This document shows positions 14,724-17,984 of a stretch of DNA of 64,000 bases, in pieces (position 1 is the first letter of the stretch; each line of letters starts with the position of its first letter). The notes beneath the pieces are model-generated. The model worked only from the letters and a program-made list of their open reading frames with translations. It did no database searches and had not been told where the DNA came from. The stretch comes from Bacillus tianshenii (GTDB lineage: Bacteria; Bacillota; Bacilli; Bacillales; Bacillaceae_N): positions 186,001 through 250,000 of the forward strand of contig CP129018.1 in assembly GCA_020524525.2 (NCBI GenBank), in the 5' to 3' direction. A program made the position numbers and the translations under genes.

Positions 14724-14801
14724 GCCTTCACAATTTTGAAGAAATGAAGGCAGAGGTTGGACATATTAGTAAGAGAAGAAGTTCGGATAGGAGGGAATGA
14801 G

Positions 14802-16064
14802 ATGACAAAGTTATTTTGGACCTGTACTGCTTTTTATATTTTTTATGCATTCTTAATGTGGTGGTATTTATTTTATGGTTCACCAGCACAGCTGCCTGAT
14901 GCATTGGAAGGAACAGCTGCTGATCCAACAACATTTATGACCAGTCGGGAAATTCAGTTGAGTTATGATTACTCACGATTAAAGCATTTATTGTTCTTTC
15001 TTGTGACGCCGTTTGAGTGGCTTGTGCTGCTTAGTATTATTGTTTTTGGAGGTTCAAGTTGGTTTTACAGAACAGCAGAAGCGGTAACAAATCGTCCTTG
15101 GCTAAAAAATGTGCTCTATGTTTTTTTGCTTTCTGTTACAACTTTTGCCCTCATGTTTCCACTGAAGTGGTTGAGTCATCAAATCTCTGTAAACTATGGT
15201 GTATCCGTAGCTGATTTTTCAGTTTGGATGAAGGATGTCGTAATTGGATATTGGTTAAATTTATTGATTTTGATTGTTATTGCTTCATGGTTTGTTTGGA
15301 TTATGAAAAAAGCACCTAAGCGGTGGTGGTTCTATTCATGGCTTGCTTCAGTGCCTTTCATTTTATTTCTTGTCTTTATTCAACCTGTTGTCATTGATCC
15401 GCTCTACAATGACTTTCGTTCATTACAGGATAAACAGTTAGAAGCGAAGATTTTGAATATAGCACAGCAAGCAGATATACCAGCAGAACATGTGTATGAA
15501 GTAAATATGTCAAAAAAAACAAATGCTTTAAACGCCTATGTGAATGGAATTGGCTCGAACGCGAGAATAGTTTTATGGGATACAACCTTGCAGAAGTTAA
15601 ATGATGATGAAGTAATTTTCATTATGGCTCACGAAATGGCCCATTACGTATACAAGCATGTTTTTATCGGTTTATCTGGTTATTTGCTTCTATCGTTTTT
15701 TGGTTTTTGGTTTGTAGCAAAAGGTGTTGCCGTTATCAAACGTAAATGGGGAGAGGGTTTGGGGGTACGTAAAGAACATATATTATTGTTGCCTGTAATT
15801 CTGTTACTGTTTTCTGTTCTTTCTTTTGCATCAAGTCCGTTAAGTAATTATGTCTCAAGAGAAATTGAACGAAGTGCAGATACATATGCAATCGAATTAA
15901 CAGAAGATCAACAAGCGGCCATTAAAACCTTTCAACAGTTAACAGCAACTGGTTTGAGTGAAGTACAACCGCCAACCCTCGTATATTGGTTTCGGTATGG
16001 CCACCCATCAATGCTTGAACGTTTACAAAAAGTAGAACAGTTTGAAACAGCTGAAGAGAAGTAA
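14802..16064 (+). CDS. yhfN: M48 membrane zinc metalloprotease YhfN
   Basis: A 420-residue integral membrane protease of the M48 (Ste24/HtpX-like) family. The zinc site HEMAH lies at about residues 277-281 after IFIM, and the third ligand is the Glu of SREIERSADTYAIEL. Several hydrophobic spans precede the catalytic domain, as in CAAX-type Ste24 enzymes. It corresponds in size and place to B. subtilis YhfN. ATG at 14802 has AGGAGGG at 14789-14795. It probably degrades or processes membrane or small peptide substrates; targets are unknown. Confidence 0.88.
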   Translation: MTKLFWTCTAFYIFYAFLMWWYLFYGSPAQLPDALEGTAADPTTFMTSREIQLSYDYSRLKHLLFFLVTPFEWLVLLSIIVFGGSSWFYRTAEAVTNRPWLKNVLYVFLLSVTTFALMFPLKWLSHQISVNYGVSVADFSVWMKDVVIGYWLNLLILIVIASWFVWIMKKAPKRWWFYSWLASVPFILFLVFIQPVVIDPLYNDFRSLQDKQLEAKILNIAQQADIPAEHVYEVNMSKKTNALNAYVNGIGSNARIVLWDTTLQKLNDDEVIFIMAHEMAHYVYKHVFIGLSGYLLLSFFGFWFVAKGVAVIKRKWGEGLGVRKEHILLLPVILLLFSVLSFASSPLSNYVSREIERSADTYAIELTEDQQAAIKTFQQLTATGLSEVQPPTLVYWFRYGHPSMLERLQKVEQFETAEEK

Positions 16065-16215: not shown

Positions 16216-16234
16216 GTTGTTATACAATAACAAC
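16216..16234. promoter_or_regulatory. Operator-like palindrome 2 (GTTGTTAT-ACA-ATAACAAC)
   Basis: A perfect 8-bp inverted repeat with a 3-base centre. TACAAT (16223-16228) inside it could be a -10, in which case a bound repressor would cover the promoter. Another ATAACAAC half-site occurs at 16254-16261. Confidence 0.45.
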
Positions 16235-16286
16235 TGTAAAAGATAACTGATATATAACAACGGTAGCGGGGGGATGCGGAAAAGAA

Positions 16287-16560
16287 ATGAACATGCAAAC
16301 TTCGACTATTCAAGCAAAAGGACCGATGAAGTCAGGGTGTGACAAGTTCTAACTCACAGCTGACAGCTTTAAAAAGGGTAATGGTACATATTTCTACCAT
16401 TCTAAAGTGAAAAGTAGGTTCACTATTAAAAAGGGGTCAATAGAGGACGGACAAACTTTATGGTAGAAATAATTCAAGGCAAGAAGTAGAACAGTTTAAG
16501 AATATGGAAGAAAAGCAATGAGTTCGTGGTAAAACTAACATGAGATGAGGGGTTAAACTT
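16287..16560 (+). pseudogene. aceB: Malate synthase remnant (aceB)
   Basis: Decayed relic with about 90 of the usual 530 codons. ATG at 16287 opens MNMQTSTIQAKGPM, resembling malate synthase A N-termini, and stops at TAA 16350. The same frame continues with LTADSF and, at 16374-16421, KGNGTYFYHSKVKSRF, which parallels the family segment KGSGPYFYLPKLESHL. KGSIEDGQTL (about 16431-16460) then resembles the C-terminal KGxLDDGRKV. After a frameshift, 16483-16550 reads EVEQFKNMEEKQ-stop-VRGKTNMR-stop-GVKL, like EVEKIKNELGEKQFxxGKYxEAxKL. Order is preserved, with large internal deletions. The family comparison is from memory. Intact aceA follows, the usual aceB-aceA order. Confidence 0.75.
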
Positions 16561-16700
16561 CCAAAGGGGCATTCTTAAGTGTTCTAGACTGTAAGCATTT
16601 GTAAGGGGATTGGTAGTTTTATAGAGTGGGCAAACAAAGGGGTTTCACGGGTAAAGGTGTTTGAAAATTAAAAAATATTAATATATAGGGGGACATTCAT

Positions 16701-17984
16701 ATGTCAAATCAAGAACGTATTGAACAATTAGAGCAAAGCTGGAAAAATGAAGAGCGTTGGAACGGCGTTACACGTCCATATTCTGCTGAAGATGTAATTC
16801 GTCTTCGCGGTTCAATCGACATTGAGTATACACTTGCTCAACGTGGTTCACAAAAGCTTTGGAAGTTAATGAAGGAAGAGCCATATATCAATGCTCTTGG
16901 TGCTCTTACAGGTAACCAAGCTGTTCAACAAGTAAAAGCAGGTCTTAAAGCAATTTACTTAAGCGGTTGGCAGGTAGCTGCTGATGCTAACTTAGCAGGT
17001 CATATGTATCCAGACCAAAGCTTATATCCTGCAAACAGTGTGCCACAAGTTGTTAAACGTATTAACCAATCTTTACAACGTGCTGACCAAATTCAACATA
17101 TGGAAGGCAAAGGAGATACGGACTGGTTCGCTCCTATCGTTGCTGATGCTGAAGCTGGCTTTGGTGGACAACTAAATGTATTTGAACTTATGAAAGGCAT
17201 GATTGAAGCAGGCGCTTCTGGTGTTCACTTTGAGGACCAATTAGCTTCTGAGAAAAAATGTGGTCACTTAGGTGGTAAAGTATTACTTCCAACACAATCA
17301 GCGGTTCGTAACTTAATCGCAGCTCGTTTTGCAGCTGACGTAATGGGTGTACCAACAGTGTTAATCGCACGTACAGATGCTGATGCAGCTGACATGATTA
17401 CAAGCGATGTTGACCCATATGATAAAGAGTTTATTACTGGTGAGCGTACAGCTGAAGGTTTCTACCGTACAAAACCAGGTATCGACCAAGCAATTTCTCG
17501 TGGTCTTGCTTATGCGCCATATGCTGACCTTATCTGGTGTGAAACGTCTACACCTGACCTTGAGCAAGCGAAGAAATTTGCTGAAGCAATCCATGCAAAA
17601 TATCCTGGTAAAATGCTTGCATACAACTGCTCACCTTCTTTCAACTGGAAAGCAAACCTTTCTGAAGATGAAATTGAAGTATATCAAAAAGAGCTTGGTA
17701 AGCTAGGATACAAATTCCAATTCGTTACATTGGCTGGCTTCCATGCACTTAACTACAGCATGTTCACATTGGCTAATGGCTACCGTGACCGTGGCATGGG
17801 TGCATACTCTGAGCTTCAACAAGCTGAGTTTGAAAGTGAAAAAGACGGCTATACTGCAACGAAGCATCAACGTGAAGTTGGTACAGGATACTTTGATGAA
17901 GTTTCTCAAGTTATCTCTGGTGGTACTTCTTCTACAACAGCAATGAAAGGTTCAACAGAAGAAGCACAATTTACAAAAGCATAA
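16701..17984 (+). CDS. aceA: Isocitrate lyase
   Basis: Glyoxylate-shunt enzyme that splits isocitrate into succinate and glyoxylate. It is 427 aa, the usual bacterial length. The catalytic loop [11 protein letters not shown] is intact at about residues 184-194, and the substrate and Mg sites [14 protein letters not shown]-like DAEAGFGGQ and the C-terminal [10 protein letters not shown] are present. ATG start with AGGGGGA upstream. A cre site lies about 550 bp upstream. Its usual partner, malate synthase, survives here only as fragments, so glyoxylate must be used by an enzyme encoded elsewhere or by another route. Confidence 0.97.

Follow-up and report, generated by a model that had tools for sequence, protein, structure and literature searches.

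The stretch directly upstream of the intact isocitrate lyase gene aceA in the window, a 64,000-nucleotide stretch of the Bacillus tianshenii genome, is confirmed at the sequence level to be a decayed malate synthase A gene (aceB), as the first-pass annotation had claimed. This assignment is carried by a chain of AceB-like fragments that none of 1000 shuffles equalled, a match to the aceB promoter, and gene order. Very probably aceB was displaced by glcB, a gene at another site in the chromosome that encodes a very different malate synthase (type G), and decayed, and the old aceB promoter was retained for aceA. The ancestor of this Bacillales lineage would have had the order M48 protease-aceB-aceA, with aceB and aceA under one promoter, and glcB would have made AceB redundant, presumably before decay began. 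Two large deletions, a stop, and a frameshift would have reduced aceB to roughly 16% of its length, and the promoter would have been retained because it now drives aceA alone, making the remnant an untranslated leader of aceA. Isocitrate lyase would then supply glyoxylate, which malate synthase G would condense with acetyl-CoA.

Comparison with the aceBA loci of relatives, proposed in the first-pass annotation, finds the order M48 protease-aceB-aceA in many of them, and the same M48 neighbour precedes aceB or aceA in many relatives; in the window the order is M48-remnant-aceA (Table 1). The protease is apparently the ancestral upstream neighbour of aceBA. The aceA product is a full-length isocitrate lyase (PF00463/TIGR01346) with the KKCGH catalytic motif, intact as first described. 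In the aceA tree, the window and a sister species (G001, 91% identity) fall inside a well-supported set of ten species, of which seven have only malate synthase G and three only malate synthase A (hereafter G only and A only). One A-only species (G125), which belongs to the clade neighbouring the window's genus, retains M48-aceB-aceA.

A profile was made from 55 intact AceB sequences, each encoded directly upstream of aceA in Bacillales aceBA loci, and compared with positions 16251-16700 of the window by a dynamic programme permitting frameshifts, stops, and costly jumps. Positions 16287-16540 are collinear with the profile (532 columns) in five blocks, all in order. The lesions are an in-frame stop, a frameshift, and two large deletions (columns 25-201 and 217-462 are absent); about 250 bases are left and about 1.3 kb is gone. 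With no open reading frame containing the catalytic core, the locus does not encode a working malate synthase A, while collinear similarity over columns 2-523 of 532 and the ancestral position and promoter of aceB identify it as a malate synthase A (TIGR01344) pseudogene. Three penalty settings gave chain scores of 100.5, 84.6, and 70.0, and at each the score was reached by 0/1000 dinucleotide shuffles (z of 6.2, 7.9, and 10.6) and by 0/400 column-permuted profiles, so the frame-tolerant alignment suggested earlier is significant as a chain. A version with a low join cost (12) was dropped and stricter settings were adopted because chance chains score too high at that cost. The fragments lie where they had first been placed, except that the C-terminal piece is KSNEFVVKLT rather than GK...GVKL; it is a probable piece and the least certain of the five.

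Table 1. Features of the aceA locus, in positions of the window.
Feature	Position	Strand	Detail	Basis
M48-type membrane metalloprotease (HtpX-like)	14757..16064	+	synteny marker	ORF; HtpX-like NCBIfam matches
Box 1 of paired palindromic boxes	16218..16229	+	TGTTATACAATA, holds -10-like TATACAAT	conserved in sister species
Box 2 of paired palindromic boxes	16248..16259	+	TGATATATAACA, 30 bp after box 1	former aceB promoter
aceB remnant, N-terminus	16287-16354	+	columns 2-24, reads MNMQTSTIQAKGPMKSGCD	frameshift-tolerant profile alignment
In-frame stop TAA in the N-terminal remnant	16350-16352	+		frameshift-tolerant profile alignment
aceB remnant KKGNGTYFYHSKVKS	16371-16415	+	columns 202-216, frame as N-terminal block	profile alignment
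aceB remnant KGSIEDG	16431-16451	+	columns 463-469, frame as first two blocks	profile alignment
aceB remnant VEQFKNME	16486-16509	+	columns 477-484, shifted frame	profile alignment
Probable aceB C-terminal remnant KSNEFVVKLT	16511-16540	+	columns 514-523, shifted frame	loosest setting only
aceA ribosome binding site	16687..16692	+	AGGGGG	sequence
aceA, isocitrate lyase	16701..17984	+	427 aa, intact, KKCGHLGGK motif present	

The promoter has outlasted the gene. A nucleotide model covering the promoter and start of aceB was built from 43 intact aceBA loci, leaving the window out. Its best match here, at E 1.6e-6, spans 16218-16329 and takes in the promoter, the start codon, and the first codons of the remnant. 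Intact aceB genes are preceded by a pair of palindromic boxes resembling TGTTATATAATA and TGTATTATAACA, with a spacing of about 30 bp, and the pair in the window scores 21/24 (shuffle maximum 17). The boxes are putative sites of a regulator, and the former aceB promoter would now serve aceA.

If the leader were instead a functional element regulating aceA, either as an upstream open reading frame peptide or as RNA, its likeness to AceB would be due to chance or to reuse of the N-terminus. The start codon of aceB and a frame of 21 codons do survive in the remnant, a small open reading frame ahead of aceBA in Bacillus licheniformis was required for function after transfer (PMC3728045), and the leader folds slightly better than its shuffles (z -2.3; 2/100 as good), which was given no weight. 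Against this, the window and the sister species are alike in two places, the promoter stretch with its boxes (146 positions, 72% identity) and the final 20 or so bases ahead of aceA, with no conservation in the stretch between them. The sister species thus keeps the promoter and nothing of the remnant, the reverse of the conserved leader named in the first-pass annotation as grounds for doubt. In addition, no Rfam family reaches threshold in the leader, and the AceB matches run beyond the stop towards the C-terminus. A functional leader is therefore improbable. The sister species also lacks aceB, and no remnant was detected there (z -0.4), so that shared loss and separate loss both fit; none was found in three other species (G016, G060, and G005).

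With displacement and decay as the preferred reading, the second enzyme has to be accounted for. The window genome (G000) is a single contig of 3.87 Mb, 100% complete. Family profile searches of the genome for malate synthases found no second AceB, TIGR01344 matching only the distant type G gene, and found an intact glcB at G000:C1:3859306-3861483 (725 aa). Its product scores 1256.8 bits against TIGR01345 (cut-off 989.15) over residues 4-721, a full member of the family, and can be aligned along its whole length with solved structures of malate synthase G (1087 bits to one), from which malate synthase activity is predicted. The whole-genome search proposed in the first-pass annotation thereby returned the first of the three options it had listed, a distant malate synthase; it was correct that the standard second step has been lost at this locus, and with an intact glcB the glyoxylate shunt itself is complete on paper. 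A further malate-synthase-like match at 3.0859 Mb scores 21.5 bits, short of the cut-off; judged by its length (306 aa) and appearance it is a CitE-like lyase, and it was set aside. Two adjacent CitE/HpcH-like lyase genes lie on the minus strand at L118:2546-4742.

The relationship between the two isoforms was examined across 151 related genomes, each from a different species, of which 124 have an isocitrate lyase over the curated cut-off. Among these 124 species, 68 are A only, 52 are G only (in two of them a divergent G scores under the cut-off), 4 have both, and none has neither, so that 120 carry exactly one isoform (Fisher p 1.2e-30, the species not being independent). On the aceA tree the A/G label requires about 16 changes, compared with 35 in shuffles, and at least 9 when well-supported branches alone are counted. 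Six G-only species (G032, G039, G068, G078, G130, and G137) carry glcB no more than about 2 kb from aceA, and in these type G appears to have taken the place of aceB beside aceA. Two other species (G009 and G019) have malate synthase G, but no isocitrate lyase of theirs exceeds the cut-off. A recent transfer of glcB between lineages was considered as the cause. Distances of aceA and glcB are correlated, with a Mantel r of 0.54 where permutations reach 0.29 at most, but the two trees disagree in deep places, and the history of glcB may be one of mere inheritance or of transfer.

The paired boxes are present at 41 intact aceB loci with at least 20/24 matches, and at the same threshold it lies upstream of aceA in 32 of the 52 G-only species; at least one box with at most one mismatch lies within 600 bp of aceA in 49 of the 52 (2.3 in shuffles). 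Spacing between the pair and aceA in G-only species ranges from 6 to 459 bases, as would be expected if the intervening gene had been deleted to different extents. In the window genome, the 13-base pattern CTGTWWTATWACA occurs 8 times (2 matches for the backward control), and some of the 8 may be chance. One of them, CTGTATTATAACA, is 75 bp upstream of glcB, and the same box precedes glcB in the sister species. Another of the 8, the perfect box CTGTTATATAACA at L270:2948-2960 (G000:C1:2829947-2829959), is 26 bp upstream of the acetate-CoA ligase gene acsA, which suggests an acetate/glyoxylate regulon. Across the relatives, an exact box is found at 9 of 48 glcB genes, compared with 0.1 in shuffles, and 34 of the 48 have no box; this makes a common regulator plausible in some lineages but not as a general rule. 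A wider reading for the order stands at even odds: the A and G isoforms in Bacillales would be interchangeable, almost mutually exclusive, and swapped at least 9 times, with the paired-box promoter of aceB passing to aceA in most swaps, and the boxes would be the operator of a putative acetate/glyoxylate regulator in Gram-positive bacteria. No report of the A/G exclusivity or of the boxes was found in the open-access literature using limited terms, although absence is unproven.

Isocitrate lyase could also work outside the shunt, with glcB serving glycolate alone. The distance of glcB from aceA (about 217 kb, assuming a circular chromosome) and its unrelated neighbours fit such a role, but isocitrate lyase never occurs without a malate synthase in the sampled species, glcB lies next to aceA in the six G-only species named above, and boxes lie upstream of both glcB and acsA. 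We consider a role outside the shunt quite unlikely. Chance resemblance of an AT-rich spacer to AceB draws on the weakness of individual fragments (E-values of 0.04 to 0.6 or worse): over six frames, no single fragment is significant alone (best HMMER E 0.04, BLASTP E 0.56). Plain HMMER and BLASTP searches were consequently discarded as sufficient proof, being too weak by themselves, and the evidence is the collinear chain together with the promoter and gene order. Leaders of aceA in G-only genomes, without aceB or evident AceB matter, served as a natural control and gave z of at most 3.1; aceB-less leaders at named loci, some overlapping coding DNA, gave at most 4.0 apart from Priestia abyssalis. 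The window gave 6.2-7.2 in the same scans. The chain statistics, together with a promoter model that was trained without the window and matches exactly here, into the start codon, already refute chance, and the ancestral gene order M48-aceB-aceA leaves it scarcely credible. Sequencing or assembly error, for which only general caution speaks, is just as negligible given several independent lesions, the missing length, a complete single-contig genome, and the absence of aceB from the sister species too.

Other stages in the displacement and decay of aceB are seen among the relatives, from a split gene (G033) through a remnant with stops (G089) and the window to nothing in most others. In the first of these (L174), aceB is split into two frames and glcB is intact, an earlier stage. 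In the second (L157), a remnant of about 430 bases lies 15-444 bases upstream of aceA and covers columns 2-59, 319-392, and 474-483, interrupted by two stops (z 54), better preserved than that in the window; this genome has two malate synthase G genes. In Priestia abyssalis (L007), a stretch 53-254 bases upstream of aceA, between the M48 protease and aceA, matches columns 7-54 and 433-440 (z 5.3) and looks like a second, independent aceB remnant. An aceB with three stops, in a genome without glcB (L184, G105), is possibly an error; the assembly is a draft and 6% contaminated. Within a single genus, four species (G063, G127, G097, and G020; loci L162, L168, L171, and L172) have a malate synthase A-derived open reading frame of 308-365 aa directly upstream of aceA. 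The frame is shortened and its core motifs are changed (DGTWVAHP, for instance, has become DGTCVSDI or DGTCVSNP), and each species also has an intact malate synthase G. This product is possibly a pseudoenzyme kept open rather than a wreck.

The puzzle of an isocitrate lyase without its usual partner is settled, and an order-wide rule emerges, in which isocitrate lyase is always accompanied by a malate synthase in the sampled relatives, nearly always a single isoform. Reading aceA without aceB as a broken shunt, in annotation or in modelling, would be wrong. A 2013 paper described regulation of the glyoxylate shunt in Gram-positive bacteria as relatively little known (PMC3728045), and the conserved paired boxes offer a testable handle on it in Bacillales.

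Compared with the Bacillales aceBA operon, as in B. licheniformis (PMC3728045), the window has the same locus order, the same aceA, and the type of promoter boxes found at the intact aceBA loci of relatives, but aceB is a short remnant and aceA is the first and sole intact gene. The second enzyme is a full member of the malate synthase G family (GlcB, TIGR01345), but glcB is not linked to aceA, and no glycolate oxidase genes were recognised in 10 kb of its neighbourhood. As in other non-orthologous (isoform) gene displacements that leave a pseudogene behind, decay of one isoform goes with presence of the other, here repeatedly across the order. The displacement is ordinary in kind and unusually well documented by relatives; what sets the window apart is that the promoter of the lost gene appears to be kept for its downstream partner.
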